Position numbers and translations under genes: made by a program. Below are positions 5,495-26,903 of a DNA stretch of 64,000 bases, piece after piece; position 1 is the first letter of the stretch; each line of letters starts with the position of its first letter. The notes under the pieces were generated by a model, which searched no databases, was not told where the DNA came from, and saw only the letters and a list, made by a program, of their open reading frames with translations. This DNA comes from Naasia aerilata (lineage in GTDB: Bacteria; Actinomycetota; Actinomycetes; Actinomycetales; Microbacteriaceae): positions 1,984,001-2,048,000 of the forward strand of contig NZ_AP027731.1 in NCBI RefSeq assembly GCF_030296595.1. Direction: 5' to 3'.

Positions 5495-6271
5495 GGCGGC
5501 GCGCGGCGCGGGCGGTCGTGCTCGCGCTGCTGCCGGCCGCGCTCCTCGCGGGCTGTGCCGCGACACCGGCCGCCGGGAACGGGGCCGAGGCGCCAGAGGG
5601 TGGCATCTCGCTCACCGTGTTCGCCGCGGCATCCCTGGCCGACGCCTTCGCCGCGCTGATTCCCGGCTTCGAGGCCGCCCATCCCGGCGTGACCGTCGTG
5701 GTGCAGGCGGGCGGCAGTTCGGGCCTCGCCGCACAGCTCGTTCAGGGGGCCCCGGCCGACGTCTTCGCCGCCGCGAGTGAGGCGACCATGAAGACCGTCG
5801 CGGATGCCGGGCTGCTCGAGGAAGCGCGGCCGTCTTCGCCACGAACACGCTCGAGATCGCGGTGCCGCCGGGGAATCCCGGCAGAGTCGCCGGGCTCGCC
5901 GATCTCAGCAGGCCGGAGCTCGCGATCGCGCTCTGCGACGCGGCCGTGCCCTGCGGCGCGGCCGCCGCCACGGCGTTCGCGGCGGCGGGCCTGACACCGG
6001 CGCCGGACACCCTGGAGCAGGACGTCACCGCGGTCCTCACCAAGGTGGAGCTCGGGGAGGCCGATGCCGGGCTCGTCTACCGGACCGACGTGCGCGCGGC
6101 GGCGGGCAAGGTCGAGGGCATCGAGTTCCCCGAGGCCGCGGGGGCCGGAACCGACTACCCGATCGGCGTGCTCGCCGAGTCGGCGCACCCCGCCGAGGCC
6201 CGCGCCTTCGCCGACTACGTGCGGGGGAGGGGCGCTCGGTGCTCGCCGAGGCCGGCTTCGGTGCGCCCTGA
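5491..6271 (+). CDS. modA: Molybdate ABC transporter substrate-binding lipoprotein ModA (two frameshifts)
   Basis: ModA captures molybdate outside the cell for ModBC. The GTG at 5491 begins a lipoprotein signal ending in LLAGC; the mature start SLTVFAAASLADAF and the GGSSGLAAQL oxyanion-binding region are typical. The reading frame breaks near 5825, continues in a second frame with LEIAVPPGNPGRV and DAGLVYRTDV, and breaks again at the G-runs 6224-6233 before ending in VLAEAGFGAP. Restoring one base at each site gives about 260 residues, normal for the family. Both losses look like sequencing errors because homology is kept on each side. Confidence 0.85.
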
Positions 6272-7061
6272 CCTGCGGAGGATGCCCGCGGCGCTGTGGG
6301 TCCCCGCCGGCATCGCCATCGCCCTGCTCGTGCTGCCGCTCCTGGCCCTGGTCCTGAGGGTGCCCTGGGGTGACCTGGGCGGCCTGCTCCTCGCCCCCGG
6401 CTCCCTCCAGGCGCTCGGCCTCTCCGTCGGCACCGCCCTGCTCTCCACGCTGCTGTGCCTGCTCCTCGGCATCCCTCTCGCCGCGGTGCTCGCGGGCGCG
6501 GACCCCTGGCCGACCCCGCTCCGCCGCGCACTGCGGGCCGTGGTGACCGTGCCCCTCGTCCTGCCGCCCGTGGTGGGCGGCATCGCCCTCCTGCTTCTGG
6601 TCGGACGCCGCGGGCTGCTCGGCGCTCCGCTCGGCGCGCTCGGCATCGCGATCCCGTTCAGCACCCCCGCCGTCGTGATCGCCCAGACGTTCGTGTCGCT
6701 GCCGTTCCTCGTCCTCGCGGTCGAGGGCGCCCTGCGTGGATCGGATGCCCGCTACGCGATGGTGGCGGCGAGCCTCGGCGCCTCCCGGTGGTACGCCTTC
6801 CGGCGGGTCACCCTTCCGCTCGTCGCGCCGGGCATCGTGTCCGGCGCGGTCCTCTGCTTCGCCCGGGCGCTGGGCGAGTTCGGCGCCACGATCACGTTCG
6901 CCGGCAGCCTCCCCGGCGTGACGCGCACCCTCCCGGTGGCGGCCTACCTCGGGCTGCAGACCGATCCGGACGCCGCGATCGTGCTCGCCCTGCTGCTGCT
7001 CGTGGTCGCCCTGGCCGTCCTCGTGAGCCTGCGCGAGCGCTGGCTGCGGGGGATCGCGTGA
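6261..7061 (+). CDS. modB: Molybdate ABC transporter permease ModB
   Basis: This inner-membrane permease of about 266 residues has several hydrophobic segments and the binding-protein-dependent transport loop (EGALRGSDARYAMVAASLG, then RRVTLPLVAPGI) that docks onto ModC. FARALGEFGATI is typical of ModB and sulfate permeases. The GTG at 6261 overlaps the modA stop by 11 nt and gives a basic N-terminus before the first membrane helix. An ATG at 6282 is the alternative but its GGAGG lies only 1-2 nt away. Confidence 0.9.
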   Translation: MRPDLRRMPAALWVPAGIAIALLVLPLLALVLRVPWGDLGGLLLAPGSLQALGLSVGTALLSTLLCLLLGIPLAAVLAGADPWPTPLRRALRAVVTVPLVLPPVVGGIALLLLVGRRGLLGAPLGALGIAIPFSTPAVVIAQTFVSLPFLVLAVEGALRGSDARYAMVAASLGASRWYAFRRVTLPLVAPGIVSGAVLCFARALGEFGATITFAGSLPGVTRTLPVAAYLGLQTDPDAAIVLALLLLVVALAVLVSLRERWLRGIA

Positions 7062-9751: not shown

Positions 9752-9798
9752 GAATAGGAAAAGCGCATCGCCCATCGGGCGGTGCGCTTTTCCTATTC
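9752..9798 (+). terminator. Rho-independent terminator after tRNA-Glu
   Basis: Arms 9752-9773 and 9777-9798 form a 22-bp stem with a 3-nt loop and one G-T pair (GCGCATCGCCC opposite GGGCGGTGCGC). The lower stem pairs GGAAAAG with CTTTTCC, so the 3' arm contains a T-run. The stem is symmetrical and may also stop transcription from the opposite strand. Confidence 0.85.
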
Positions 9799-9820
9799 CC
9801 CAACCCGGTTGACCCGGTGC

Positions 9821-9879
9821 TCGAGGTGGCAGTTGTTGCTGCTATTCGGCGGTTTTGGGAGCACCTAGTGCCACCTCGA
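9821..9879. repeat. GAGGTGGCA-family palindromic element, overlapping the MFS 3' end
   Basis: TCGAGGTGGCA (9821-9831) and TGCCACCTCGA (9869-9879) form a perfect 11-bp stem. The interior shares GTTGTTGCTG and AGCACCTAG with the element at 43154-43218. One arm lies inside the last codons of the MFS gene, whose stop codon (9842-9844) falls in the loop. Other copies: 22630-22688, 26904-26955 and 43154-43218. Confidence 0.8.
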
Positions 9880-11302
9880 CGGCCTCCGCCACCGGCGGCT
9901 TCGACCTCCCGCTGAGGTGGGTGCGCGGCATCCACAGGGCGGCCGCCAGGTGGACCACCGCGAATGCGGCCACCACGATGAACACGGCGCCGCTCGCCGC
10001 CTGCACGGTCTGCGGATCCTGTCCGCCCTGCCCCTGCTCGAGGACCGCCTTCGCGACCGCGCCGAGCGCAGCGACGCCGACGACTTGCCCCAGCGTGCGG
10101 AAGAAGGAGACCAGCCCGGTTACCATGCCGCGCTGCTGCCAGGCGACGCTCTCCTGCACCGCCACCAGGCCCGGCACGGTGGTCAGGCCGAACCCGGCCC
10201 CGATGAGAGCGGCGCACGCGGCGACGATCCACGGGGACGGGAGGGCCACGAAGACCGCGAGCCCCGCGCCGCCCAGGAGAGCAAGGACGGCGCCCGCAGC
10301 CGTCGTGGGCAGGAGTCCCCAGCGGAGGGCGAGCCACCCGGCCGCTGCCGACGTGACCGGCTGCCCGATCGCCATGGCGGCCACGGCGACGCCGGCCCAG
10401 ATCGGCGAGGCGCCGGCGGCCACCTGCAGGTAGGTCGGCGCGAAGGCCGTGAGGCCGACCATGATGCCGCCCATCATCAGGCCGAGCACCGCCATCACCA
10501 CGACGAGCCGCCGCCGGAACAGGGCGAGCGGGATGATCGGCTCGCTGGCGCGCCTCTCCTGGATCACGAACGCGACCAGGAGCAGGGCTCCGACGACGAA
10601 GATGGCGACGCTGGTGGGCGATCCCCAGCCCCACGCCTCCCCGCCCTCGAGGAGGCCGAGCACCAGCAGGGTGAGCGCGCCGGTGATGAGCACCGCGCCG
10701 AGGTAGTCGATCCGGTGCGGGCGGCGCTCGAACTGCTCGTGGACGTTCCGGGCGATCAGCCACAGGGTGAGGATGCCGAGCGGCAGGTTGATGAGGAACA
10801 CCCAGCGCCAGGCGTCGAGCAGCGCGAAGAGCCCGCCGACCGCCGGTCCGATGACCGAGGAGGCCGCCAGGGTGACCGCAATGTGGCCCTGCACTCGTGC
10901 GCGCTCCGCGCCGCGGTAGGTGTCGCCGATCACGGTGAGCGCCAGCGACTGGATCGAGCCGCCGCCGAGGGCCTGCACGACCCGGAAGGCGATCAGCGAG
11001 GGCATGCTCCACGCGAGGCCGCAGAGCACCGACCCGATCACGAAGACGGTCACGCCGATCAGCAGGAGGCGCTTCCGCCCCACGATGTCGGCGAGCCGCG
11101 AGACCACCGGCATCGTCACCGTCATCGTCAGCAGATAGACGGTGAAGAGCCAGGGGAAGTCGGAGAACCCGCCGATGTCCCGGGCGATGGTGGGGATGGC
11201 GGTGGAGATGACCCACGCCGACATGCCGATCAGGAAGGTGGCCACCAGCATCGCCAGCAGCGCGGGTCCGCGCTGGGATCGGAGGCCGATGTCCTCGGAC
11301 AC
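9842..11302 (-). CDS. MFS drug-efflux-type transporter (DHA2 family)
   Basis: The 486-residue membrane protein starts with a helix followed by the DHA2 pattern WVISTAIPTIARDIGG and the MFS motif SRLADIVGRKRLLLIG near residue 70. It has a VIGPAVGGLFALLDAWRWVFLINLPLG segment typical of the EmrB/QacA group and about 14 hydrophobic segments. It is probably a proton-coupled exporter. It lies 2 nt downstream of the ThDP-enzyme gene as the last gene of the operon, so it may export a pathway intermediate or toxic analogue. Its last ten codons are shaped by a palindromic repeat. Confidence 0.88.
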   Translation of the reverse strand: MSEDIGLRSQRGPALLAMLVATFLIGMSAWVISTAIPTIARDIGGFSDFPWLFTVYLLTMTVTMPVVSRLADIVGRKRLLLIGVTVFVIGSVLCGLAWSMPSLIAFRVVQALGGGSIQSLALTVIGDTYRGAERARVQGHIAVTLAASSVIGPAVGGLFALLDAWRWVFLINLPLGILTLWLIARNVHEQFERRPHRIDYLGAVLITGALTLLVLGLLEGGEAWGWGSPTSVAIFVVGALLLVAFVIQERRASEPIIPLALFRRRLVVVMAVLGLMMGGIMVGLTAFAPTYLQVAAGASPIWAGVAVAAMAIGQPVTSAAAGWLALRWGLLPTTAAGAVLALLGGAGLAVFVALPSPWIVAACAALIGAGFGLTTVPGLVAVQESVAWQQRGMVTGLVSFFRTLGQVVGVAALGAVAKAVLEQGQGGQDPQTVQAASGAVFIVVAAFAVVHLAAALWMPRTHLSGRSKPPVAEAVEVALGAPKTAE

Positions 11303-11304
11303 GG

Positions 11305-13036
11305 CTAGCGCTCGTCTTCCGGCTGGCCGGTGATCGGATCGAGCCGGACGGAGACGACCGCCGGCCGCCCCGCTGCCACCTCGGCGAGGCCGGTGCGCAG
11401 CGCGTCCTCGAGCTCCCCGAAGCTCGTGACGGTGGCGCCCCAGCTGCCGCCCGCCGCCGCGGCGATTCCCGGGAAGTCCGCGCTCTGCTGCAGGTTCACG
11501 AAGTACCGGTCGGTGCGGTCCGCAGTTCCTCCCGCGTGCTGGCGCTTGAGGTTGCGCTTCGTCGCGTTCCAGCCGCCGTTGTCGAGCACGACGGTGAGGA
11601 GGGGGATGTCGTAGCGGTCCGCGACCCAGTAGCTGGACGAGGGGACGCTGAAGAAGAACGTGCCGTCGCCGACGATGCTGACCACGGTCCGGTCGGGGCT
11701 CGCGAGCTTCACGCCCAGCGCTCCGCCGCCCGACCAGCCCAGCGAGGTGCCGCGGTTGCCGAAGACGGTCCCGGGGTGCTGGCGCGGCAGGTGCTTCCAC
11801 ACGGTCGGCGCCTCGGAGATGGCCTCGTTGAGCACGATCGCGTCGTCGTCGAGGAGGCCGGCGAGGACCGCCGAGACGCTGGCGGGCGTGAGCCGCTCCG
11901 CCGCGACGTCCTGCTCGACCGCGCTCCGCCAGGTCGCCCGCAGCTGCGAGCCACGCTCCTCGGCGGCGCGCGACCGCTCGGCGACCTTGCCCTCGTCGGT
12001 CGGGGACGCGCCGAGTCGCCGGAGGAGCTGGTCGAGCAGCACACCGCTGTCCGCGCGGACGAAGTGGTCGGCGGGCAGGTACCAGAGGGGCAGGCCCTCC
12101 TGCAGCGGGTCCTCGTTGATGACGTAGACCTTCGCGTCGGCGCGCGGGCGTCCCGAACCGGCGAGCCACGGCGCATCCGTGTCGATCGCCAGCAGGAGGT
12201 CGGCGTCGGCCAGGAGGGTGCGGGTCGTCGCCGGCGTGCAGCGGGTGGTCGTAGGGGAAGCTCAGGACCTCGGCGTTGTACTCGACCACGGCGATCCCGA
12301 GGCGCTCCGCGACCTCGACCAGCTTCGGCACCGAGGACTGGTTGCGGCCGAGGTACGTGGTCACCAGCACGGGGCGCTCGGCGCGCTGCAGATCGGCGAT
12401 GAGCTCGTCCACGAGCTCTTCGGGCGCGGCGATCGGGGCCACCGCAGACCACTGGGCCGTCGCGGTCTCCGGGCGAGGCACCACCTCGGCGAGCACCTCG
12501 CGCGCGCCGGTGAGGTAGACGGGGCCAGCGGGTGCGCTCGTCGCGAGCTGGAGGCCGCGCAGCACGAGCTGCGGCACATTGCGCCCGGTCCGGATGTCGT
12601 AGCTCCACTTCACGTACTGGCGGACGAGCGCGTGCTGGTCGGGGGCGTCCTGCAGGTGGTTGATGTGGGTGTTGCGGGTTCCGGGCAGCTCACCCTCGAG
12701 CGTGTAGGGCGTGAGCCCCGCGAAGATGAACACGGGCACCCGCGCCCGCGCGGCGTTGTGCACCGCGCCGCCCAGGTTGGCGGTGCCCACGTCCGTGTGG
12801 ATGAACACCGCCTGCGGGCGTCCCGTGACGGCGGCGTAGCCGTGCGCGGCGCTCAGCGCCGTGTACTCGTGCGGGCACAGGATCACGGTGGGCGAGTCGA
12901 TCCCGCGCTCCCGGTCGGCGGCGAGGGCCTCGATGATTGCGGGATGGTCGCTGCCGAAGTTGGCGAACAGGTACTCGACGCCCGCATCCCGCAGCGTCTC
13001 GATGAGCAGCGCGGCCGCCGACGCGGACTCCGCCAC
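11305..13036 (-). CDS. Thiamine diphosphate-dependent enzyme, decarboxylase/acetolactate synthase fold (frameshift)
   Basis: The protein of about 576 residues has the three ThDP domains. The N-terminal PYR domain carries the catalytic glutamate in CPHEYTALSAAHGYA near residue 55. The C-terminal PP domain carries GDGTFFF followed about 25 residues later by LDNGGWN, the Mg-ThDP motif. The frame breaks around 12225-12245, between HPLHAG and RTLLADADLL; here one extra or two missing bases are needed, unlike other breaks in the window. Neighbouring aldehyde dehydrogenase suggests a 2-oxo acid decarboxylase such as a benzoylformate decarboxylase, but the substrate is inferred only. GTG 13036 follows the aldehyde dehydrogenase stop by 2 nt. 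Confidence 0.8.
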
Positions 13037-13038
13037 CC

Positions 13039-14525
13039 CTAGCTCGCGTCCGGGAAGGTCTGCACGTCGACGCTGTGGAACTGGAGGTACTCGTCGATCC
13101 CGTAGGGCGACGCCTCCCACCCGATGCCGCTCTGCTTCCAGCCGCCGAACGGGATCTCCTTCTGGCCGGTCGGGGTGAAGAGGTGGCTGTTGACGATCGT
13201 CATGCCGGCCTCGATGCGCGACGCGACCGCGAGGGCGTGCTCGGGGAGCGGGACCACACCGACGAGCAGAGCCCGTACTCGGTGTCGTTCGCGAGCGCGA
13301 TGGCCTCCTCCTCGGTCTCGTAGGCGATGACGGGAAGGATCGGGCCGAACTGCTCCTCGCGCACGATCTCGTCGTCCTGCTGCGCGTCGAGCACGACAGC
13401 GGGCAGGGAGAAGAGGCCCTCCTCCCACTGCTCAGGGCTGAGCTTGGTGCCGAGCACGCGGACATCCCGGCCCGCGGCCTGGGTGCGCTCGAGCAGGCCC
13501 TGCACCTTCGTCAGCTGGCCCTCGTTGTTGACCGGCCCCATGGTGGCGCGCTCGTCCAGCGGGTCGCCGACCGCGATGCGGTCGACGCGCTCGACCAGCA
13601 GGCGGCGGAACTCCTCCGCCTGCGCCTGCGGCACGTAGATCCGCTTGACGGCGAAGCACACCTGGCCGGAGCGGCGGAAGGCGGAATCGACGATGCGGTC
13701 GACGGTGACCTCGAGATCCGCGTCGTCCAGGACGATCGCGGGGTCGTTGCCGCCGAGCTCGAAGTGGACGCCCTTCAGCTGCTCCGCCGCGGCGCGCATG
13801 ATGTGCCGGGCCGTCTCGCCTCCGCCGGTGAACGAGATCTTGCGGACCTCGGGGTGGCTCGTGATCGCGCCGCCGACCTCGCCGCCGCCGTTGACGATGT
13901 TCACGACACCCGCGGGCAGGATGGACGCGGCGATGCGCCCGATCAGCGTCACGCCGAGCGGCGCGAACGGCGAGGGCTTGAGCACGATCGCGTTGCCGGC
14001 GGCGAGCGCGGGGGCGATCTTGTTCGCGGTGAGGATGAGCGGCGCGTTCCACGGCACGATGCACGCGACCACGCCGAACGGCTTTCGCTCCACCCGGACG
14101 AAGGAGCCCGGCGTGCCCGAGGGGTAGTCGCGCGGCGCCAGCTTCTCGGCGAGGTACCCCTCGATGTCGCGGAAGGCGTGGGAGGCGCCGATCAGCTCGC
14201 GCCGGATGATGCTGCGGACGCTGCCGTTCTCGCGCGCGACGAGCGTGGCCAGGTCCTCGGCGGCGGCGTCGATCTCGTCGGCGATCCTCGCGAAGAGCGC
14301 GATGCGCTCCTCCGGCGTGGTCGCAGCCCACCCGCGAGCGGCGGCGACGGCTGCGGCGACCGCCGCCTCGACGTCCTCCAGGGTGCCGTCGACGACGGTG
14401 CCGACGATCTCGCTGCGCCGCCCCGGGTTGCGCACCTCGAGGACGCGGTCGCCTGGCCGCTCCACACCGTCGATCACCTGGCCGAGCTGCAGCGACTCGA
14501 GCGTGTCCGGCATCGTCAACGTCAT
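13039..14525 (-). CDS. NAD(P)-dependent aldehyde dehydrogenase (frameshift)
   Basis: This 495-residue member of the ALDH superfamily shows CIVPWNAPLILTANKIAPALAAGN near residue 150, FTGGGETARHIM near 230, the general-base glutamate in FELGGNDP near 255 and the catalytic cysteine in SGQVCFAVKRIYV near 290. The frame breaks at GGGG 13243-13246: adding one G restores the C-terminal EHALAVASRIEAGMTIVN. It ends in the family-typical GGWKQSGIG region. It probably oxidises the aldehyde produced by the adjacent ThDP enzyme. Confidence 0.87.
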
Positions 14526-14553
14526 CGTTCTCTTCCTTCGTGCGGGGTGTGGG

Positions 14554-15345
14554 TCAGGCGTGGGGCATCACGAGCGACAGCAGGTGGTTGCGCAGCTCGA
14601 GGAACTCCGGGCTGGAGCGAGTCTCCACCTGGTCGCGGCTCTCGCCGAGGGAGACCGGGACGACCTCCTTGACGACGCTCGGGTTCTTCGACAGCACCAC
14701 GATCCTGTCGCTCAGGTAGATGGCCTCGTCGATGTCGTGCGTCACGAGGACGACCGTGATGCCGAGCTCGGTGCGGACCTTGAGGATGAGGTCCTCGAGG
14801 TCGAACCGGGTCTGCGCGTCCACGGAGGCGAAGGGCTCGTCCATGAGCAGCAGCTCGGGCCGGTAGGACAGCGCCCGCGCGATGGCGACCCGCTGCTGCA
14901 TGCCGCCGGAGAGCTCCCACGGGTACTTCTTCTCGACGTGGCCGAGGCCGACGTTGCCGAGCACCTCGGCGACGCGCGCCGCGCGCTCGCCCTTCGGCAC
15001 ACCGCGGGCGGCGAGCGGCAGGGCGACGTTCCGCCCGTTGGTGTACCAGGGGTAGAGGGAGCGGCTGTAGTCCTGGAACACTAGGCCCAGCTGGGCCGGG
15101 ACGTCGGTCAGTCGCTTCCCCTCGAACGTCACCGACCCCGAGCTCGGGGCCGCGAGGCCCGAGATGCAGCGCAGCAGCGTCGTCTTGCCGGCGCCGCTCG
15201 GGCCGACGATGCAGACGAACTCGCCCTTCTCGACGCTGAAGGACACGCTGTCGATGGCCATGTTGGCCGCGTCGGTGCCCTCGTTGTAGATCTTCCGGAG
15301 GTCCTCGACGGCGAGGACGGTCTGGGTGGTCACGGGAATGGACAT
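14554..15345 (-). CDS. ABC transporter ATPase, nitrate/sulfonate/taurine type
   Basis: The 263-residue ATPase has Walker [10 protein letters not shown] near residue 50, signature [15 protein letters not shown] near 145, Walker [13 protein letters not shown] near 168 and [15 protein letters not shown] near 205, which is characteristic of the SsuB/TauB/NrtD group. It serves the two permeases and the NMT1-type binding protein upstream in the operon. Confidence 0.9.
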
Positions 15346-15354
15346 GGCTTCCTT

Positions 15355-16188
15355 CTACGATCCGCCGAGGGCACGGGAGCGGTAGTACCACCGCAGCACG
15401 AGTCGCTCGACGAAGACGAACAGGTAGTTGAGCAGGGTGCCGATCAGGGCGAGGACGATGATCCCCGTCCACATCTTCTTGATCGCGAACTCGGCCTGCG
15501 ACTGGAGGATGAAGTAGCCGATCCCCGAGCGGGCGGCGACCATCTCGCTGATCACCATGAGGATGATCCCGACGGTGAGGCTGGCGCGGAGACCGGCGGC
15601 GATCTGCGGGCCGGCACCCGGGAGCACGAGCGTGAAGTAGCTGCGCCAGCTGCTCAGGCGGAGTGCCCGCGCGGTGTCGAACTTCACCGTGTCGATTCCG
15701 CGCATGCCGTCCAGGGTGTTGAGCAGCGTCGGCCAGATGGCGCCGAAGGAGATGAGCGCGATCTGCCGCAGATCCCCGATGCCGAAGATCGCGATCATCG
15801 CGGGCAGCAGCGCCGGAGCCGGGAGCACGTACAGGAAGTAGATGAGCGGGTTCGCGGCGGTGCGGAGGAGCCGGAGCCGCCACAGCAGGGACCCGCCGAC
15901 GATGCCGATGGCCGCGCCGAGCACGTAGCCGAGCAGCAGGTTGCGGAGGCTCGACACCGCGTTCTGCCACGCCCCGAACACGACCCACTGGTTCCAGGTC
16001 TCGCCGAGGATGTCGGACAGGGGCGGGAAGAACGGCGACGTGCTGCGAGCGCTGAGGACCCACCAGAGCACGAGGAGGAGCACCGGCAGCCACAGCCCGG
16101 TCAGCACGCGGCCGATCCGCCGGAGCGGCACGCCGGGGCGGGCCGAACGGCGCACCGTCGGCACGCTCGCGGTCGTCAGGCGGCTCAT
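15355..16188 (-). CDS. ABC transporter permease, SsuC/TauC type
   Basis: The 277-residue membrane protein has about six hydrophobic segments and the cytoplasmic EAA-like loop (DTARALRLSSWRSYFTLVLPGAGPQIAAGLRASL) that contacts the ATPase. VGIILMVISEMVAARSGIGYFI is typical of nitrate/sulfonate permeases. The ATG at 16188 overlaps the preceding permease by 4 nt, so two different permeases form a heterodimeric channel. Confidence 0.9.
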   Translation of the reverse strand: MSRLTTASVPTVRRSARPGVPLRRIGRVLTGLWLPVLLLVLWWVLSARSTSPFFPPLSDILGETWNQWVVFGAWQNAVSSLRNLLLGYVLGAAIGIVGGSLLWRLRLLRTAANPLIYFLYVLPAPALLPAMIAIFGIGDLRQIALISFGAIWPTLLNTLDGMRGIDTVKFDTARALRLSSWRSYFTLVLPGAGPQIAAGLRASLTVGIILMVISEMVAARSGIGYFILQSQAEFAIKKMWTGIIVLALIGTLLNYLFVFVERLVLRWYYRSRALGGS

Positions 16189-16996
16189 GCGCGCACCGCC
16201 CCACCCGACGCGCGGATGTTCCGCTGCGATTCGTGCCAGTGCATCAGACGGCGCTCCAGGAGGAAGAAGGCCCCGGTGAGCAGGATGCCGAGCAGGCCCG
16301 CCACGAGGATGTAGGCGTACATGGTGGGGAAGGAGCTCGTGCCGGCGTTCTCCGCGAGCAGGATGTTGCGGCCGATGCCCTCGGCGCCGCCCACGATCTC
16401 CGCCACGACCGACAGGATGAGCGCCTGCGCCGACGCGATCCGCATCCCGGTGACGAGGTAGGGCGACGCACTCGGGATGGTCACGGTGAAGAACCGACGC
16501 ACGCCGCGCACGCCGAGCGCCTTCGACGTGTCGAGGACGACCTGGTCCATCGACTGCACGCCGTAGATCACCTGGATCACGAACGGCCAGAAGGCCGCGA
16601 AGACGATCAGGAACACCTTCATCGGCAGCGTCGACCCCATCACGAGGATGACGAGGGGAGGACGGCGATCGCCGGGATCGCCTTGAACAGCTCGATGACC
16701 GGGGCGGCGCTCCGACGGGCGAACTCGTTGAAGGCCAGGGCGGTGCCGACGACCAGGCCGAGAACGATCGTGATGACCATCCCGATCAGCCAGCCGAGCA
16801 TGGTCGCGCCGATCGCCGGCCAGATCTTCGCGGAGGTCAGGTCGGCCCAGAGGGCGGCCACCGAGTCCGTCATCGTCGGGAACTGGAGGGTGCTGACGAC
16901 GCCGGTGGCCGTCACGAGCTGCCAGAACAGGAGCACGACGAGCACGGTCAGCGAAGGGAGGATCCAGTTGATCCAACCCCTCGCCGGCGTGCTCAT
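16185..16996 (-). CDS. Second ABC transporter permease, SsuC/TauC type (frameshift)
   Basis: The N-terminal part (FWQLVTATGVVSTLQFPTM, six-helix start) and the C-terminal part (DTSKALGVRGVRRFFTVTIPSASPYLVTGMRIA, then SVVAEIVGGAEGIG) lie in different frames that meet at GGGG 16655-16658. One added base gives 270 residues, the normal size. It pairs with the permease at 15355-16188. The ATG at 16996 is preceded by GAAGGAG. Confidence 0.85.
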
Positions 16997-17069
16997 CGTG
17001 CTCCTTCGCGCTGTGCGCAGTTCACTGGAAATCAGACGCCTCGATCGAGACGGCCGTCGGAGGCGTTCG

Positions 17070-18113
17070 TCACTTCGCTTCGAGCGCGCCCGGCCAGACG
17101 AGCGTCTTCACATCGAGGCCCTTGACCGCGGACTTGACGGAGGCGTCGTCGCTGAACTTCGCCAGGAAGCCCTGGGCCGTCTTGAACGAGTCGAGGTTCA
17201 CGTACGGCACGCCGCCGATGTTCCACTTGGCGACCTTCGCCTGCTCCTCGGTGAGGCCCAGGCCGGGGACGAGCGATTCGCGCGCCGCGTCCGGGTCCTC
17301 GTTGGCCGCGTCGATGGACTCGATCATCGCGTCCGAGAACGCCTGCACGGTGTTCGGGTTCGCGTCGATGAAGGGCTGCGACGTGTTCATGAACGTCGTC
17401 GCGGTGTTCTTGAACATGACCTGGTTGTTGTAGCCCAGCACGACGCCGCCGGCGTCCAGCGCGTCCTTCGCGAACGGCCACTGCATCACCGCGGCGTCCA
17501 CGTCGCCGCTCTGCAGCGCCGCGGCCATCTGGCCGAAGGGGAGCTGCACGAGCTCGATCGACTTGGGGTCGATGCCCGCCTCGTCGGCGAGCGCCCACGT
17601 GGTGAGGGTGTTCATCGAGGACAGGCCGACCGTCGCGAGCTTCTTGCCCTTGAGGTCGCCGTAGTCCTCGATGCCCGAGTTCGGCGAAGCGATCGTGACC
17701 GTGCCCTCGTCGTCCGGCTTGATCTGGCCCTCGATGGTGCTGACCGTCCGGATCGGGATGCCGTTCGCGTTCGCGGTGAGCACGTGCACGACCGTGGCGA
17801 AGCCGAAGTCGTAGGTGCCGCTCGCGATGCCGGACACGATCGCCGCGACGTCGGTCTGGGGAACGACCTTCAGGTCGAGGCCGTGCTCCTTGAAGATGCC
17901 GGAGTCCATGCCGTAGAACATCGGCGCGAACTGGGACGACGGGTTGATGGCGACCGTGAGGCTCGTCTTCTCCGGCGTCGTGTCGGCCGCGGCGCTCGAT
18001 CCGCCCGAGGACGCGGGAGCGTCGCCGCTTCCGGATGCGCACGCGGACAGGAGGGCGGTCGCCGCGAGGAGGGCGGCTGCGCCGGTGACCCGGCGCCTGT
18101 TGAGAAACTTCAT
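17070..18113 (-). CDS. ABC transporter substrate-binding lipoprotein, NMT1/THI5 (SsuA/TauA) type
   Basis: The 347-residue protein has a lipoprotein signal ending in LLSAC and a mature domain beginning TSLTVAINPSSQFAPMFYGMDSGIFKEHGLDLKVV, the classic NMT1-like opening. The fold is a type II periplasmic binding protein. In this operon, with an amidohydrolase, a ThDP enzyme and an aldehyde dehydrogenase, the ligand is probably an organic acid, perhaps aromatic, rather than a sulfonate; this is inference. GGAGC lies just before the ATG. Confidence 0.88.
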   Translation of the reverse strand: MKFLNRRRVTGAAALLAATALLSACASGSGDAPASSGGSSAAADTTPEKTSLTVAINPSSQFAPMFYGMDSGIFKEHGLDLKVVPQTDVAAIVSGIASGTYDFGFATVVHVLTANANGIPIRTVSTIEGQIKPDDEGTVTIASPNSGIEDYGDLKGKKLATVGLSSMNTLTTWALADEAGIDPKSIELVQLPFGQMAAALQSGDVDAAVMQWPFAKDALDAGGVVLGYNNQVMFKNTATTFMNTSQPFIDANPNTVQAFSDAMIESIDAANEDPDAARESLVPGLGLTEEQAKVAKWNIGGVPYVNLDSFKTAQGFLAKFSDDASVKSAVKGLDVKTLVWPGALEAK

Positions 18114-18193
18114 CGTTGCTCCTTGATCGGATTGCTGGTTGGGGTTCTGGTGCTGGTCGTGCTCATGCGGAGGGTGCGCTGCTCACCCACCGG

Positions 18194-19234
18194 TCAGACG
18201 GAGACCTTCTCCGTCAGGCCGAGGAGGTCGACGACGTTGCCGGAGTAGATCGCGTCGCGATCCGCGTCGGTGATGATGTCCATCTCCTCGAGGTTCTTGA
18301 TCGTCGACCGGATGTAGCCCGGGCCCTTCTCCGGGTCGAACGGGGAGTCGGAGCCGAACAGGGTCTGGCCGACGCCGAAGAACTTGATGGCGGTCCGCAT
18401 CGAGTCGCCGGCGCCGAAGTAGGCGGTGTCGACGTAGAACTTCTTGAAGTACTCGATCGGGCGCTGCGTGAGCGGGTACCCGGCGATGTCCTCGGCCATG
18501 CTGTCCGGCGTCCGCGAGCCGAGCTGGTCCCAGCCGGGCCCGACGCGTCCGGCGAAGTGGGGAATCATCGCCCCGCCGTGGTGGATGAGGATCTTGATGT
18601 CCGGGAGGCGCTCGAAGATGCCGGCGAAGACCAGGCGGGACATGAAGGCGGAGAGGTCGTACTCCCAGCCGAGCGTCCACCAGATCTCGAACTTGCTGCG
18701 CTCCTCGGTCTTGTAGTCCGCCCAGCTGGAGTCGCGGCAGGGGTGGACCTGGATCATCTTGTTGCCGCGCTTCGCGACCGCCTCGTAGAACGGGAAGAAC
18801 TTCTCCTGGTCCATGGGGCCGCCGTGGTGGTGGGTGTAGATCTGCACGCCGACGGCACCCAGCTCGTCGAACGCGCGGTTCGCCTCCGTGATGGCGGCGT
18901 CGACGTCGTCGAGCGACACCGCGGCGCAGAAGCCGGCGAAGCGGTCAGGGTGGGCGTCCACGAGCTCGGCCATGCCGTCGTTCGCGATGCGGGCGAGCTC
19001 CACGGTCCGGTCGACGGGACCGAGGTCTTCGAGCGGCGGGGCGGCGGTGTTGATGATCTGCCGGTAGTTCGGGCCGAACTCGTCCATGATCCGGAAGCGG
19101 AGATCCATGTCGACGAGGGCGGGAACGCCGCTCACGCGCTTCTGAACGTTGCGGGCCACCGGGCTGTCATCGATCGCGAAGAGGCGCTTCGCGTACTCCT
19201 CCGGGAGCATGTGACAGAAGGCATCGATCTTCAT
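18194..19234 (-). CDS. Amidohydrolase-family protein (ACMSD / resorcylate decarboxylase-like)
   Basis: This 346-residue protein belongs to the amidohydrolase-2 (ACMSD) family, whose members decarboxylate or hydrolyse aromatic and related acids with a divalent metal. Visible metal ligands are H in IQVHP near residue 185, H in IHHGG near 235 and D in FGSDSPF near 300. The N-terminal motif, usually HxH, reads DAFCHMLP, so the first histidine is replaced by Phe. It is the first gene of the minus-strand operon, with AAGGAAGG before the ATG, and a palindrome upstream at 19333-19349. Confidence 0.85.
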   Translation of the reverse strand: MKIDAFCHMLPEEYAKRLFAIDDSPVARNVQKRVSGVPALVDMDLRFRIMDEFGPNYRQIINTAAPPLEDLGPVDRTVELARIANDGMAELVDAHPDRFAGFCAAVSLDDVDAAITEANRAFDELGAVGVQIYTHHHGGPMDQEKFFPFYEAVAKRGNKMIQVHPCRDSSWADYKTEERSKFEIWWTLGWEYDLSAFMSRLVFAGIFERLPDIKILIHHGGAMIPHFAGRVGPGWDQLGSRTPDSMAEDIAGYPLTQRPIEYFKKFYVDTAYFGAGDSMRTAIKFFGVGQTLFGSDSPFDPEKGPGYIRSTIKNLEEMDIITDADRDAIYSGNVVDLLGLTEKVSV

Positions 19235-19332
19235 TGGTCGGGCGTCCTTCCTTGAGACCGCTGCGGTGCGGTCTGCGACGTCCTGCTAGCCAATCCCGGC
19301 CGTCGCAGGGGGACAAGCGATCGTGTGGCCAC

Positions 19333-19349
19333 ATTCCGCCATGCGGAAT
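19333..19349. promoter_or_regulatory. Candidate IclR operator upstream of the catabolic operon
   Basis: ATTCCGC-CAT-GCGGAAT is a perfect palindrome with 7-bp arms. It lies between the stop codon of the IclR gene and the start of the amidohydrolase gene, about 100 bp upstream of the operon. Its size and symmetry suit an IclR dimer. A TTGTCC/TTGGCT pair with 17-bp spacing lies between it and the gene on the minus strand. Confidence 0.5.
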
Positions 19350-19374
19350 AGCCGGGGTGGGCGGGGCGCCCGGG

Positions 19375-20172
19375 CTAGGACGACCGACGCGACAGGTCTT
19401 CGCGGATGAGTGCCGCGCACTCGCGGAGCTCGATCACGATCTCCCGGACCTGGCGTCGGGACATCCGGGAACTCGGCGCGGACACGGCCAGAGCGGCGAT
19501 CACGCGGCCGAGCTGGTCACGCAGCGGGACTGCGACGGCGCTGAGGCCCTCCTCGCTCTCGCCCTCGTTGAGGGCGTAGCCGCGCATCATCACGAGCGAC
19601 AGGTCGTCGACGAGCTGCGTGAACGTCTTCGTGCGCGGCGTGAGCTTCCGGAGCCCGGTGGGGTACAGCTCGCGCAGGCGGTCCCGCGACAGCTCGGCGA
19701 GCAGCACCTTGCCGCCCGACACCGCGTACGCGGGCAGCATGGTGCCGGTGAGCACGTGGGTGCGCACCCGCTGGTCGCTCTCGAAGCCCGCGACGAACCG
19801 CACCGACGGGCCCTGCAGCACGAGCATGTTGACCGTCTCGCCCAGCTTCGCCGACAGCGCCCTCAGGTGCGGCTCGCCCGCCGCGCGGAGGTCGAAGGCG
19901 CTCGTGCTGCCGACGCCGAGCTCGATCAGTGCCGGGCCGGCGCGGTACGCCTTCGACACGCGGTCCTGGGTGACGAACCCGCGGTCGGCGAGGGTGCTGA
20001 GCAGCCGATGCGCGGTCGACGGAGCGATGCCGACCGCGGCGGCCGCGGCGGTGACTCGCAGCTCCGGCTCCTGCTGCAGCAGCAGGAGCAGGCGGAGGGC
20101 GTGATCGACCGCCCCGACCCGGTTCCTCGACGCCTCCTCGGCGCCTCCGGGCGCCTGGCTGTCCTGGTCCAC
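19375..20172 (-). CDS. IclR-family transcriptional regulator
   Basis: The 265-residue protein has an N-terminal winged helix (VGAVDHALRLLLLLQ, then VGIAPSTAHRLLSTLADRGFV near residue 50) and the C-terminal IclR effector domain (GETVNMLVLQGPSVRFVAGFES, YAVSGGKVLLAELS, ALNEGESEEGLSAVAVPL). The GTG at 20172 is 2 nt after the NYN gene stop. It points the same way as the downstream catabolic operon and probably responds to its substrate or an intermediate. Confidence 0.92.
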   Translation of the reverse strand: MDQDSQAPGGAEEASRNRVGAVDHALRLLLLLQQEPELRVTAAAAAVGIAPSTAHRLLSTLADRGFVTQDRVSKAYRAGPALIELGVGSTSAFDLRAAGEPHLRALSAKLGETVNMLVLQGPSVRFVAGFESDQRVRTHVLTGTMLPAYAVSGGKVLLAELSRDRLRELYPTGLRKLTPRTKTFTQLVDDLSLVMMRGYALNEGESEEGLSAVAVPLRDQLGRVIAALAVSAPSSRMSRRQVREIVIELRECAALIREDLSRRSS

Positions 20173-20174
20173 GG

Positions 20175-20735
20175 TCAGCGGAGGAACACCTGCGGGTCGA
20201 ACTCGGACAGCGGGATGATCCGCACCCGGGGGAGCGGTGACGTGAAGGCGCGGACGTCGCTCTCCAGGTCGTAGAGGGGGACGTCGAGCGCGCCGTAGGC
20301 CCCGCTGACCAGCTCGGGGAAGCCGATGAGCCCGACCCGCTGGTCCGCATCGAGGAGGCGCTCGACCTGCTCGACGAAGTCGGCGTCGTGGCTGCAGAGC
20401 AGCACGTCCGCATCCCGGCCCACGAGGGCGTCGAGGGTCCGCTGGATGCCGATGTCGACGACCTTCTCGGTCGTCGAGCCGGACAGCGGGACCGGGCGGA
20501 AGCCGATGTTGAGCAGGGCGCTCACGAACGGCCCTGGCAGGTAGCCGTTGGACGCGTTGAGGAAGAACAGCCCGGTGACGTCCTGATCCCACAGGCGGCG
20601 GGCGAAGTCGATGACGCGCTCCCAGCGCGGGCGCTCGGAGGGCTCCGGCTTGCGGCCGAGCACCGTCACGCCGAGGGTCGCGTCGATGTTCTCACCGTCC
20701 ACGAGGATGTAGGTGCGACGGGGCGTGCGGTCCAC
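20175..20735 (-). CDS. NYN-domain (PIN-like, LabA/DUF88) protein, putative nuclease
   Basis: The 186-residue protein is a single NYN domain. It opens with YILVDGENID, carries EKVVDIGIQRTLDAL near residue 90 and LLCSHDADFVEQVERL near 115, which supply the acidic residues expected in a PIN-like metal site. Family members are thought to act on RNA, but the target is unknown. GAGGGAGC precedes the GTG start. It is directly upstream of the IclR gene, probably without functional connection. Confidence 0.8.
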   Translation of the reverse strand: MDRTPRRTYILVDGENIDATLGVTVLGRKPEPSERPRWERVIDFARRLWDQDVTGLFFLNASNGYLPGPFVSALLNIGFRPVPLSGSTTEKVVDIGIQRTLDALVGRDADVLLCSHDADFVEQVERLLDADQRVGLIGFPELVSGAYGALDVPLYDLESDVRAFTSPLPRVRIIPLSEFDPQVFLR

Positions 20736-20801
20736 GGTGCTCCCTCAGGCTCGGTCTGCTGCATCGCGCAGTGAGGCCGAGCCTAAGGGAAGAGGCCCTG
20801 A

Positions 20802-21182
20802 TCAGGCCCCCGGCGGTGGCGCCCCAGCATCCGTGAACGTGGCGATCGGCTCCTGCGCCTCGACGAGATAGGTCGAGAGCATCCGCCCGGTGCCGGGGCC
20901 CAGGTCCCGCGCGTTGTGCGGCGTCCGCGGCGGGATGAGGAACGGGCTCCCGGCGGGCAGCGTCAGGGTCGGTCGCCCATCGATCCGCATCTCCACCGTG
21001 CCGGCGAGGATGTAGCCGACCTCCTCGCCCGGATGGATGTGCCAGCCGGACTCGACCCCCTCCGGGATCTCGGTGAGCACCTGGACGATGTCCCGTCCCG
21101 GGATCGATGAGCGCTCGTGCTGGAGCTCCGTCCGCTGCAGGGTGCCGGCGAGGGCGTCGTGCGGGTCCTCGACCGTGGTCAT
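20802..21182 (-). CDS. Cupin-domain protein
   Basis: The 126-residue protein is a single small beta-barrel. The first cupin motif is seen in WHIHPGEEVGYILAG (two His and one Glu as metal ligands), and the second in FLIPPRTPHNARDLG. Such proteins can be isomerases, dioxygenases or sensors, and nothing here indicates which. It lies upstream of the alpha/beta hydrolase gene on the same strand. Confidence 0.85.
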   Translation of the reverse strand: MTTVEDPHDALAGTLQRTELQHERSSIPGRDIVQVLTEIPEGVESGWHIHPGEEVGYILAGTVEMRIDGRPTLTLPAGSPFLIPPRTPHNARDLGPGTGRMLSTYLVEAQEPIATFTDAGAPPPGA

Positions 21183-21216
21183 CGAGGAGCCCGTCCGATC
21201 GACACCGCGCCCTGCG

Positions 21217-21933
21217 TCATGCGGACTCCAGGGTGCGGGTTCCCGCCGCCTCGAGGATCATGGCGACGAGGTCCTGCGCGTGCGACATACCGACCACGTG
21301 CGATGCCCCCGCGACCTCGAGCGTCCGCTTCGCTCCCGCCCGTTCCGCCATGAAGCGGTGGACGGCGACCGGGATGTTGCGGTCCAGCTCGCCGAACATG
21401 AACCAGGACGGCACGGACTTCCAGAGCGGCGCCACCGCCTTGTCGGCGAACGCGGACTCGAGGATCGGGCGCTGCGTGGCGCCCATCTGCCGCGTCATCA
21501 CTTCGGGGAGATCGGCCGCGAACTGGTCGTGGTAGTGCTTCTGCGAGATGTACAGGTCGGCGGGGCCGTCGCTCTGCCGCACAGACTCCAGGGTCGGGCC
21601 GAGCGTGGAGCCGGGGAACTTGCCCGAGAGGTCCGCGGGCGACTCTCCGACCTCGGGCGCGAACCCGGAGAGGTAGACCAGGGCGACGATCTGACCTGCG
21701 TCGGCGGGGACGTCGCTGATGACGGAGCCGCCGTAGGAGTGGCCGACCAGCACGACGGGGCCGGAGAGGCTGCGCACCACGTCGGCGACGTAGCGGGAGT
21801 CGGAGGGCACGCCGCGCAGCGGATTCGCCACGGCGACGACGTCGTGGCCGGCGTCCTGGAGCGGGGGGATGATGTCGTTCCAGCTGGACGACTCGGCGAA
21901 TGCGCCGTGGACGAGCACGATCGTGGGCTTCAT
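21217..21933 (-). CDS. Alpha/beta-fold hydrolase
   Basis: The 238-residue protein has the oxyanion-hole region VLVHGAFAESSSW, the nucleophile elbow GHSYGGSVI with catalytic Ser near residue 70, a candidate Asp in FGELDRNIPV and the catalytic His in GASHVVGMSH near the C-terminus. This subgroup is often annotated as esterase or haloperoxidase-like. The natural substrate is not evident. The ATG at 21933 is preceded by AAGGAG. Confidence 0.87.
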   Translation of the reverse strand: MKPTIVLVHGAFAESSSWNDIIPPLQDAGHDVVAVANPLRGVPSDSRYVADVVRSLSGPVVLVGHSYGGSVISDVPADAGQIVALVYLSGFAPEVGESPADLSGKFPGSTLGPTLESVRQSDGPADLYISQKHYHDQFAADLPEVMTRQMGATQRPILESAFADKAVAPLWKSVPSWFMFGELDRNIPVAVHRFMAERAGAKRTLEVAGASHVVGMSHAQDLVAMILEAAGTRTLESA

Positions 21934-22049
21934 GAGACTCCTTCTGCCGGACGTCCGGGCGTCGGCCGCCTCGACCCGGACAAGCTCCTCCGGGCCGCCC
22001 CGCTCCGCCAGAGGACCTCGTCCCTCAGTCGCCCTTCGGGCGTGTCGCG

Positions 22050-22517
22050 CTAGGCGGTCGCCCGCCTCACCAGCTCGACGATCCGCGCCTCCACCTCGGG
22101 CGTGAGCTCCACGATCGCGTAGGAGGTGGGCCACATGTCGCCTTCGTCGAGCTCCGCCGCCTCGTTGAAGCCGAGCGTCGCGTACCGGGCCTTGAACTTG
22201 GCAGCGGCCTGGAAGAAGACGATGTTCTTGCCGTCCTTCGCGTAGGCGGGCATCCCGTACCAGGTCTTGGGTGTCAGAGCCGGGGCGGCGGAGGTGATGA
22301 TCGTGTGCAGACGCTCCGCGAGGGTGCGGTCGGGCTCGGGGAGCTCGGCGATCTTCGCGAGCACCTCCTGCTCCGGGTCGATCGCGGTGCCCGCGGCCTT
22401 CCGCCGAGCGGCGGCCTTGAGCTCGCGGGACCGCTCCTTCATCGCGAGCTTCTCCTCCGCGGTGAAGCCCTCGGCGTCGGAATCGGTCCTCTTCGTGGAC
22501 CCGGCGGTCTCGGTCAT
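22050..22517 (-). CDS. DUF1801 (YdhG-like) domain protein
   Basis: The 155-residue protein has a charged, helical N-terminal half (about residues 20-60, Lys/Glu/Ala-rich) followed by a DUF1801-type domain with ERLHTIITSAAPALTPKTWYGMPAYAKDGKNIVFF. This fold is seen in small proteins of unknown function related to YdhG and iron chaperone-like families. The gene stands alone, and the function is unknown. Confidence 0.8.
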   Translation of the reverse strand: MTETAGSTKRTDSDAEGFTAEEKLAMKERSRELKAAARRKAAGTAIDPEQEVLAKIAELPEPDRTLAERLHTIITSAAPALTPKTWYGMPAYAKDGKNIVFFQAAAKFKARYATLGFNEAAELDEGDMWPTSYAIVELTPEVEARIVELVRRATA

Positions 22518-22629
22518 GGCGGTCTCCTGTCTCGTGCGGGGCGGCGATCGCGGCCAGCCTAGGGATTCGCCCGCCCGCCCCGCTTCTCCATTCCTGCTCG
22601 GTCAGGCGGGCCCGCCGGCCCCCACCGCG

Positions 22630-22688
22630 CCGAGGTGGCAGTTGCTGCTGCCACCTCGGCGGTGAAGCAGCAACGAGTGCCACCTCGG
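22630..22688. repeat. GAGGTGGCA-family palindromic element
   Basis: CCGAGGTGGCA (22630-22640) pairs with TGCCACCTCGG at either 22649-22659 or 22678-22688, so two mutually exclusive stems are possible. GTTGCTGCT near 22641 and AGCAGCAAC near 22667 form a further inverted repeat. It lies downstream of the SnoaL-like gene stop, in the gap to the upstream region of the DUF1801 gene. Confidence 0.8.
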
Positions 22689-22700
22689 CGGCCCGGATGG

Positions 22701-23099
22701 TCAGCGCGCGGCGGCCGCGGCCTGGAGTGCCTCGTTGACGGGAGCGAAGGCGACCCGGTCGAGCAGGAGCTCGACCTCGGTGATCCGGCCGTCCCGCACG
22801 GTGAGCAGCTCGACGCAGCGCACGGCGCCTGCGGGCGTGCCCGTGACGAAGTCGTAGACCACGCAGGCGCGCTCTCCGTCGGCAAACACCTCGCGGATGT
22901 CGTTGCGCTCGAGCGCCGGGAGGAGCCGGCGCAGCGCCTCGAGCCACTCCTCCTTCGAGAAGGATCCGCCGGCGAAGGTGGCGACCATGCCGTCGGCCAG
23001 CAGGGTCTCGAGCGGCGCGAGATCGCGACGGCCGACCGCCTGGATGTAGGCGCGGGCGGGTTCGGCGACGTTCTGGGTGGAGGCGTGATCTGTGCTCAT
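22701..23099 (-). CDS. SnoaL/NTF2-like protein
   Basis: The 132-residue protein has the alpha+beta cone fold of the SnoaL/NTF2 group: a helical start (PARAYIQAVGRRDLAPLETLLADGMVATF), then strands with GERACVVYDFVTGTPAG and a final VRDGRITEVELLLD. Members bind small molecules as isomerases, cyclases or carriers; no specific role is visible. It is divergent from the arsR-SRPBCC pair across an 81-bp gap that holds a candidate ArsR operator, so all three genes may be co-regulated. Confidence 0.82.
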   Translation of the reverse strand: MSTDHASTQNVAEPARAYIQAVGRRDLAPLETLLADGMVATFAGGSFSKEEWLEALRRLLPALERNDIREVFADGERACVVYDFVTGTPAGAVRCVELLTVRDGRITEVELLLDRVAFAPVNEALQAAAAAR

Positions 23100-23128
23100 G
23101 ACGAGGACCGTAGCTCCCGCGGTCGCGT

Positions 23129-23150
23129 TCCACAAGTGTATGTTTGTGGA
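23129..23150. promoter_or_regulatory. Candidate ArsR operator in divergent promoter
   Basis: TCCACAA (23129-23135) and TTGTGGA (23144-23150) form a perfect inverted repeat with an 8-bp spacer that contains a TATGTT -10-like box. It lies about 30 bp upstream of the ArsR ATG, where repressor binding would block RNA polymerase. The spacing suits a winged-helix dimer. Confidence 0.55.
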
Positions 23151-23180
23151 CGACACTGAACTCGCGAACGGAGGAGGACG

Positions 23181-23982: not shown

Positions 23983-24062
23983 CCGCCGACCCCTCGCGTA
24001 ACGTCTCGACACGTGCCGCAACACTGAGTCGCCGGACCTCGCGGGGCGGTCCCAGCCGCCCC

Positions 24063-24068
24063 TACGCT
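24063..24068 (+). promoter_or_regulatory. Candidate -10 box for metN
   Basis: TACGCT ends 8 nt before the metN ATG. No Shine-Dalgarno sequence lies in between, so a leaderless transcript is likely. No SAM riboswitch is seen in the 93-bp gap upstream. Confidence 0.45.
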
Positions 24069-24075
24069 CGCGGCC

Positions 24076-25110: not shown

Positions 25111-25159
25111 GCGGGGCGCTCCTCGTCGGCGCGGGGCCCTGCGGCCCGCGACGAACACC

Positions 25160-25875: not shown

Positions 25876-25967
25876 CCGGCTCCCCCTCGTCCTTCTTCCC
25901 CTTCTCCCTTCCCACCTTCCTGGCGCACGCCGGCCTTCGGCGTGCCCGCACTTCGAGAGGAACACCC

Positions 25968-26890: not shown

Positions 26891-26903
26891 CCCGCCGCCC
26901 GTG

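Follow-up and report, generated by a model that had tools for sequence, protein, structure and literature searches.

The window analysed here is a 64,000-nucleotide stretch of the Naasia aerilata genome (Microbacteriaceae; contig NZ_AP027731.1, positions 1,984,001 to 2,048,000), and it contains an operon of eight genes that occupies the minus strand from 9842 to 19234 (coordinates are those of the window throughout). The operon opens with a gene for an Amidohydro_2 enzyme (18194-19234; Pfam E-value 1.1e-29), followed by genes for an NMT1-type substrate-binding protein (SBP) that looks like a lipoprotein by eye (17070-18113; NMT1, 9.9e-30) and for the rest of an ATP-binding cassette (ABC) importer: permease A (16185-16996; BPD_transp_1, 9.9e-18 for the larger of two pieces), permease B (15355-16188; BPD_transp_1, 6.2e-20) and an ATPase (14554-15345; ABC_tran, 2.6e-34). 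Next come an aldehyde dehydrogenase (ALDH; 13039-14525; Aldedh, 1.7e-124 and 5.2e-11 for its two pieces), a thiamine diphosphate (ThDP)-dependent enzyme of the PRK08327 family (11305-13036; GTG start; NCBIfam NF006203, with TPP_enzyme_C as its Pfam match) and a major facilitator superfamily (MFS) transporter that is nearest to the DHA2/EmrB efflux type (9842-11302; GTG start). The original prediction, made from the sequence alone, had placed eight such genes behind a palindrome, and all are present with the families it named; Pfam backs these assignments, except for the MFS gene, where the support comes from NCBIfam matches below cut-off (OtrB, 198 bits; TIGR00711, 183 bits). An IclR-family regulator gene (PcaR/PcaU/PobR-like; 19375-20172, GTG start; IclR_C 2.6e-37, HTH_IclR 1.5e-13) that the prediction did not mention lies directly upstream on the same strand and is counted as part of the unit. 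Intergenic gaps among the eight genes are at most 80 bases and several of the genes abut or overlap, which is the spacing expected of one transcript. Between the operon end and a tRNA-Glu gene lies a hairpin with 16-bp arms (9752-9798) that is a possible terminator. It includes shorter terminator-like stems on both strands (two found in a pattern scan, 0.2 expected) and may terminate transcripts arriving from both sides.

The operon is real, conserved, linked to an IclR gene and catabolic, and every part of it is of a known kind. In Microbacteriaceae bacterium PS02066 (locus L014) it is unbroken and has the same order and orientation from the IclR gene through the ThDP gene, with protein identities of 70% (IclR), 86% (amidohydrolase), 70% (SBP), 74.5% (permease A), 72% (permease B), 81% (ATPase), 57% (ALDH) and 60% (ThDP enzyme). 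No MFS match was obtained in this locus; at the corresponding position is a second amidohydrolase gene whose product matches LigW (5-carboxyvanillate decarboxylase) with 360 bits. A related operon in genome G091 (locus L012) has the order SBP-permease A-permease B-ATPase-ThDP enzyme-ALDH-amidohydrolase and a divergent IclR gene, and it also holds a FAD_binding_3 protein and a LigW-like gene (407 bits to 5-carboxyvanillate decarboxylase) whose product is 63% identical to that of L014. The ThDP enzyme of L012 is 28% identical and has benzoylformate decarboxylase as its best NCBIfam match (315 bits, cut-off 493); by its sequence it belongs to another branch for which the same chemistry is expected. 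Beside this operon, at L012:582-6022, lies a gene with a match to LhpI, cis-3-hydroxy-L-proline dehydratase (218 bits, cut-off 700; aconitase X-like by eye), together with an ABC importer of its own.

Between the IclR and amidohydrolase genes the plus strand reads ATTCCGC CAT GCGGAAT (19333-19349), which is the perfect palindrome that had been claimed. By itself it is not significant, as the window holds 18 perfect palindromes of the 7-3-7 form, and it was kept through its conservation only. The palindrome gains meaning from its own sequence and from its recurrence beside the IclR genes of L014 (ATTCCGC-AGA-GCGGAAT, between IclR and amidohydrolase) and L012 (TTCCGC-CTC-GCGGAA, between IclR and the LigW-like gene; an imperfect TCCCGC-CAT-GCGGGA lies between IclR and SBP), and it is probably the IclR operator. 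The looser pattern TTCCGC-N1-5-GCGGAA occurs once in the window. Exact scans for TTCCGC-N3-GCGGAA in six genomes gave three sites in the host (G000), where about 0.37 would be expected for a 3.39-Mb genome of its base composition, two in G132, one each in G008, G091 and G542, and none in G068; a control pattern gave none in any of the six. In G542 (the genome of L014) and G091 the sole site is the one at the IclR locus. Five further sites lie elsewhere (two in G000, two in G132, one in G008); on this count, close to one site per genome could arise by chance. The G132 and G008 sites fall within reading frames and the third host site is past the end of a permease gene, while the remaining host site (L113, G000:C1:306092) is about 65 bases upstream of a probable PobA start and heads a PobA-PcaH-PcaG run.

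The genes for permease A, ALDH and the ThDP enzyme are each spread over two frames, with breaks near 16655, 13250 and 12200 that were placed by tblastn with the intact L014 proteins as queries. These breaks are most likely sequencing or assembly errors, since leuC and murA in the same window are likewise broken and the assembly is less complete than those of two genus mates. A decaying operon, in which the three breaks would be genuine and no product would be made, is a very improbable alternative: breaks do fall in three of the eight genes, and a second ThDP gene of the host genome (at 853 kb) is broken as well, but leuC, in two frames, and the housekeeping gene murA, in three, show comparable splits at 84-95% identity to same-genus copies, the single-contig assembly has a completeness of 90.6 versus 99 and 100 in two genus mates, and one frame change per gene is sufficient to restore all three operon genes. 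Indel errors seem to be widespread throughout the assembly. By eye, a modA-like frame also continues into modB; the stretches concerned, for leuC, murA and this pair, are 28323-31784 and 5862-7061 of the window. On the host contig a split Amidohydro_2 match recurs with identical scores near both ends (G000:C1:21941-22764 and 3369422-3370245), perhaps an untrimmed overlap of a circular chromosome.

The amidohydrolase matches PF04909 with 104.5 bits (gathering cut-off 26.4). Its N-terminus reads IDAFCH, placing F6-C7-H8 where an HxH motif is usual. The original prediction had remarked on the missing first His; the absence is real but not odd, as all ten of the closest relatives lack it as well. 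These ten (at least 40% identity over nearly the whole length) are among 55 loci returned when named genomes were scanned for two peptide patterns, and one of the ten, L022, is the same protein as in G008. The first motif position is F in seven, Y in two and A in one, and the second motif His is kept in all ten. In a 15-sequence alignment D4, H8, H164, H219 and D296 are invariant; among its four remoter relatives HxH is present in one (L025) and absent from three (L023, L024 and L027). The missing His is a trait of the subfamily, and the idea that it marks a dead or new enzyme was rejected. A metal site formed by H8, H164 and D296 is plausible.

The AlphaFold2 model of the amidohydrolase (predicted local distance difference test score, pLDDT, 89.5; pTM 0.90) has a TIM barrel of the ACMSD/LigW type, with overall Z scores of 34-40 to 3ij6, ACMSD, IDCase, LigW, gamma-resorcylate decarboxylase (gamma-RSD) and 2,3-DHBD. 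The closest solved structure is 3ij6, a metal-dependent hydrolase of Lactobacillus acidophilus (Z 39.9, root-mean-square deviation (rmsd) 1.9, 30-32% identity) that also lacks the first His (IDAYAH). The decarboxylases of the amidohydrolase superfamily (ACMSD, LigW, gamma-RSD, IDCase and 2,3-DHBD) share the fold at Z 34-37; individual values are 36.7 for ACMSD, 36.1 for IDCase, 35.6 for LigW and 35.4 for gamma-RSD, and human ACMSD and LigW align over 315-322 residues at Z 35.5-36.7 and rmsd 2.6-2.8. With a spread of less than 2 among these four, the fold cannot pick the substrate. The closest characterised protein is human ACMSD, by sequence (1.4e-25) as by profile (1.6e-60). LigJ and LigY score less well than the family's decarboxylases on both measures (profile E-values 4e-31 and 9.7e-27; Z 30-32), and the model is consistent with a probable metal-dependent decarboxylase. 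LigW presumably shows the opposite motif pattern, as it keeps the first N-terminal ligand (Glu) and has lost the second place, the one that is kept here as H8; its H188 and D314 are taken as the counterparts of H164 and D296. An excerpt of PMC8187880 lists as metal ligands Glu19/His188/Asp314 in LigW, Glu8/His10/His164/Asp287 in gamma-RSD, Glu8/His167/Asp293 in 2,3-DHBD and His12/His14/His195/Asp323 in IDCase, so that the first N-terminal ligand is Glu in LigW and gamma-RSD and His in IDCase, where the present enzyme has Phe.

The two pieces of the ThDP enzyme score 353 (N part) and 196 bits (C part) against NF006203, each alone below the cut-off of 456, and the intact L014 relative scores 607 bits and belongs to PRK08327. 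We know of no tested function for this family. It is related by sequence to benzoylformate decarboxylase (BFD): the L014 protein has BFDs at the head of its Protein Data Bank matches (2e-32), and it scores 160 bits with the BFD model PRK07092 and 157.5 bits with PRK08199, while the window pieces give 78 and 83 bits with PRK07092. Its Ser, Glu and His align with BFD positions 26, 47 and 70, which, together with His281, we take to be the active-site residues S26, E47, H70 and H281 in the usual numbering; inspection by eye finds these three residues (Ser, Glu and His) in the N part of the window enzyme too. The C part gives 58 bits with sulfoacetaldehyde acetyltransferase (cut-off 676). The larger ALDH piece, a partial protein, is over the cut-off of none of the 25 listed NCBIfam models (HpaE, 327 bits, cut-off 638; 2-hydroxymuconic semialdehyde dehydrogenase, 293 bits, cut-off 693); the enzyme belongs to the general ALDH family, and solved structures related to its L014 copy indicate no clear substrate.

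For the SBP, none of the seven listed NCBIfam models is over cut-off, the SsuA family being best with 100.8 bits (cut-off 163.5) and a taurine model reaching 63.8 (cut-off 304). Its structural model (pLDDT 79.4, built from five sequences) has SsuA and TauA as first fold neighbours, followed by Thi5 and by nitrate/bicarbonate, thiamin and pyrroloquinoline quinone (PQQ) binders. The original prediction described the transporter class as normally linked to sulfonates, but the class does not single them out: proteins of similar fold also include binders of thiamin and its precursors, of nitrate, of bicarbonate and of PQQ. The fold names no ligand and the importer class gives no substrate. The accompanying statement that a sulfonate enzyme is missing stands, with no sulfonate monooxygenase among the operon genes in Pfam and NCBIfam searches (the scope of all gene-content negatives for the operon below).

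Relatives of the amidohydrolase (E-value at most 1e-40) are found in 2 of 149 other genomes drawn from the family (3 of 150 including its own), and at 1e-80 the ThDP enzyme is found only in its own genome and in G531 among 396 genomes drawn from the phylum. Gene context was compared in 21 amidohydrolase loci of 3.3-21 kb (about 40% identity or more; ten genome contigs, ten plasmids and G091), with ALDH and ThDP relatives counted at 1e-15 or better; three of 13 plasmid matches (H20, H21 and H22) stand outside this count. Both enzymes are present in 5 of the 21 (L012, L014, L082, L084 and L090); since the loci share ancestry and differ in length, no probability is attached to this frequency. On a Sagittula plasmid the amidohydrolase, ALDH and ThDP genes lie beside those for an alpha-hydroxy acid oxidase, a ketopantoate reductase-type protein and an FAD monooxygenase. 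A Rhizobium plasmid has the amidohydrolase relative near pcaGH and maleylacetoacetate and maleylpyruvate isomerase-type genes, in L021 an amidohydrolase relative adjoins pobA (PRK08243, 618 bits, cut-off 351; TIGR02360, 553 bits, over cut-off), and a Pacificitalea plasmid has a class II aldolase as annotated neighbour. ThDP relatives occur near a reductive dehalogenase and a class III extradiol dioxygenase (Comamonas pBHB) and near pobA and oxalomesaconate-pathway genes (Nitratireductor). An L018 gene labelled by eye as 4,5-dihydroxyphthalate decarboxylase matched nothing in Pfam or NCBIfam when translated in the stated frame and was not used.

These observations are best accommodated, with a probability of roughly 0.45, by a peripheral catabolic operon under IclR control that would channel an aromatic (oxo)acid into 4-hydroxybenzoate or protocatechuate. 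In this scheme the IclR regulator would bind the palindrome and control the operon. The substrate brought in by the importer would be an organic acid, with an aromatic (hydroxy)carboxylic or 2-oxo acid the most likely. Using a divalent metal on H8, H164 and D296, the amidohydrolase would catalyse the non-oxidative loss of a ring carboxyl group, the ThDP enzyme would decarboxylate an aryl 2-oxo acid to the aldehyde as benzoylformate decarboxylase does, and ALDH would oxidise the aldehyde to an aromatic acid that feeds the pobA-pcaHG (4-hydroxybenzoate/protocatechuate) pathway. The host has these genes, with pcaH and pcaG over their cut-offs and PobA over that of PRK08243 and below that of TIGR02360. 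The original prediction of an importer joined to 2-oxo acid decarboxylation and aldehyde oxidation is supported, because BFDs are the nearest solved relatives of the ThDP enzyme, because the two enzymes accompany the amidohydrolase in the five loci named above and because L012 has a BFD-like enzyme; the mandelate degradation given as its example is not itself shown. Neither a mandelate racemase nor a mandelate dehydrogenase was found among the operon genes, the rest of the genome not having been searched for them. Of the readings considered, the one with an aromatic 2-oxo acid has the strongest support, although it is unproven.

Several observations weigh against this reading. There is no LigW-like, ring-hydroxylating or ring-cleaving gene in the window operon, and all of its enzyme activities are predictions. 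The L014 ThDP enzyme passes the cut-off of PRK08327 only (that of the BFD model is 493), and it lacks a His at the position of BFD His281, a weak point as both aligned chains are variants that likewise lack it. The nearest solved structure of the amidohydrolase, 3ij6, is itself uncharacterised. Neither an ALDH nor a ThDP relative was found in 16 of the 21 amidohydrolase loci, one of which (L091) has an annotated thiamine pyrophosphate-dependent enzyme that is cut by the end of the stretch and gave no match; among the remoter loci (L023-L031, L033 and L034), L024, L028, L031 and L033 have ALDH without the ThDP enzyme. In six loci chosen by the ThDP enzyme (L074, L075, L076, L081, L085 and L086) this amidohydrolase is never present and an ALDH relative is present in three (L076, L081 and L086). 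L020, L022 and some others show nothing clearly aromatic nearby by eye, and the Sinorhizobium, Neorhizobium and Phyllobacterium plasmid records carry no annotation. The palindrome at the host pobA-pca genes may be under a separate IclR regulator, whose gene lies at 297.6 kb, about 8 kb away, or may be due to chance.

A more specific form of the scheme, which we consider improbable, is a tandem decarboxylation of a carboxylated aryl-glyoxylate, in which the amidohydrolase would take the ring carboxyl and the PRK08327 enzyme the side-chain carboxyl; the aromatic-x-His amidohydrolase would then use a three-ligand metal site that mirrors that of LigW. If the tandem route were true, both enzyme families would gain a function. 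If the reading of the operon as a whole is right, two unassigned enzyme groups, the aromatic-x-His branch of PF04909 and PRK08327, would acquire a common context, and the regulator and its candidate operator would offer a ready way to search for the inducer. In L014 the genes are unbroken and provide expressible proteins. The practical meaning would be modest, namely one more aromatic-acid route in strain-specific DNA. In the open PMC literature no paper on the operon or on PRK08327 was recognised, which is not proof that none exists.

The other substrate readings differ in what the amidohydrolase is taken to do. As human ACMSD is closest by sequence, profile and, among characterised structures, Z score, the operon could be a branch of a ring-cleavage pathway in which an ACMSD-like amidohydrolase decarboxylates a carboxymuconate-type semialdehyde, ALDH oxidises the semialdehyde so formed and a later 2-oxo acid is the substrate of the ThDP enzyme. 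The ALDH scores with HpaE and 2-hydroxymuconic semialdehyde dehydrogenase point in this direction, as do the ring-cleavage genes near relatives on the Rhizobium plasmid, on pBHB and in Nitratireductor; but the operon has no ring-cleavage dioxygenase, both ALDH scores (from a partial protein) are far under their cut-offs, and ACMSD is within 2 Z units of IDCase, LigW and gamma-RSD, which makes this reading rather unlikely. It is doubtful, too, that the amidohydrolase is a LigJ/LigY-like hydratase or C-C hydrolase working with a ThDP carboligase or lyase on a non-aromatic oxo acid. LigJ and LigY do share the fold and PRK08327 has no tested function that we know of, but the known decarboxylases of the family outscore both proteins, and benzoylformate decarboxylase is the second-best model for the L014 ThDP enzyme, if barely above PRK08199.

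Import and degradation of a sulfonate, a thiamin-type pyrimidine or another heterocycle is likewise an unlikely explanation. The order of the NCBIfam scores and of the fold neighbours of the SBP, with SsuA and taurine proteins first and thiamin-related and PQQ binders behind them, argues for it; against it are the failure of all listed SBP models to reach cut-off, the missing sulfonate monooxygenase and the low score of the ThDP C part with sulfoacetaldehyde acetyltransferase.

The operon lies in an insert (9752-27055) relative to the same-genus genome G068, between tRNA-Glu and TerC-leuCD. In the window 17.3 kb separate the end of tRNA-Glu(CTC) (9751) from the TerC-side match (27056), whereas G068 has a DAGK-type gene, tRNA-Glu(CTC) and then TerC-leuCD-murA with about 0.2 kb from tRNA to TerC-side match. 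The same gap is about 4.1 kb in G132 and about 0.2 kb in G008, and TerC was not found within the stretch of G091 examined; the site is variable among genomes. An NYN-type gene within the insert (20175-20735) is at another place in G068. A canonical integrative element was considered and rejected, as a search of 20001-27300 gave no direct repeat of the tRNA 3' end; the only tRNA-like stretch there, a 20-base match with two mismatches at 24370, corresponds to an inner segment of the tRNA gene. Inspection of the insert open reading frames by eye revealed no integrase, and no family scan for integrases was run on them. Elsewhere in the host genome, L074 (G000:C1:843500-863000) is another uncharacterised importer cluster, with the frame-broken second ThDP gene (N part 59% identical), an ABC permease and ATPase like those of the operon and, by eye, an NMT1-type SBP, a short-chain dehydrogenase/reductase (SDR) and a RidA-like protein. 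A further NMT1-type ABC importer (SBP, two permeases and ATPase) at L078 (G000:C1:486500-501500) has, by eye, an SDR-type gene and a ThDP C-terminal-like open reading frame in its neighbourhood.

The mandelate pathway (mdlABCD) consists of a racemase, a dehydrogenase, benzoylformate decarboxylase and benzaldehyde dehydrogenase. The operon resembles it in that a ThDP enzyme of decarboxylase type adjoins an aldehyde dehydrogenase and an aromatic aldehyde intermediate is expected, and differs from it in having neither racemase nor mandelate dehydrogenase, in a ThDP enzyme of PRK08327 rather than PRK07092, and in an extra amidohydrolase and ABC importer. The gamma-resorcylate (tsd) pathway presumably contains an amidohydrolase-type decarboxylase, and to our knowledge the tsd genes include no ThDP enzyme, ALDH or NMT1 importer. 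The PcaR/PcaU/PobR regulators are the best NCBIfam match of the IclR protein (TIGR02431), but its 152 bits, like the 156 bits of the L014 relative, are below the cut-off of 284.75. According to an excerpt of PMC8222616, IclR regulators govern the metabolism of aromatic compounds most often, and the tsd genes of Rhodococcus jostii RHA1 are under the IclR regulator TsdR (its Table 1), whose listed operator GTGTGRYTSSMRTCAYAC differs from the palindrome described here. The group 1 consensus in the same excerpt, GKTYCRYW3-4RYGRAMC, is matched at 6 of 7 positions in each half-site with a spacer that is not W3, and the Corynebacterium glutamicum PcaR site that it lists, GTTCGC-N3-GCGAAC, resembles the palindrome, with an architecture of 6-bp halves around an N3 spacer in both (PMC8222616).

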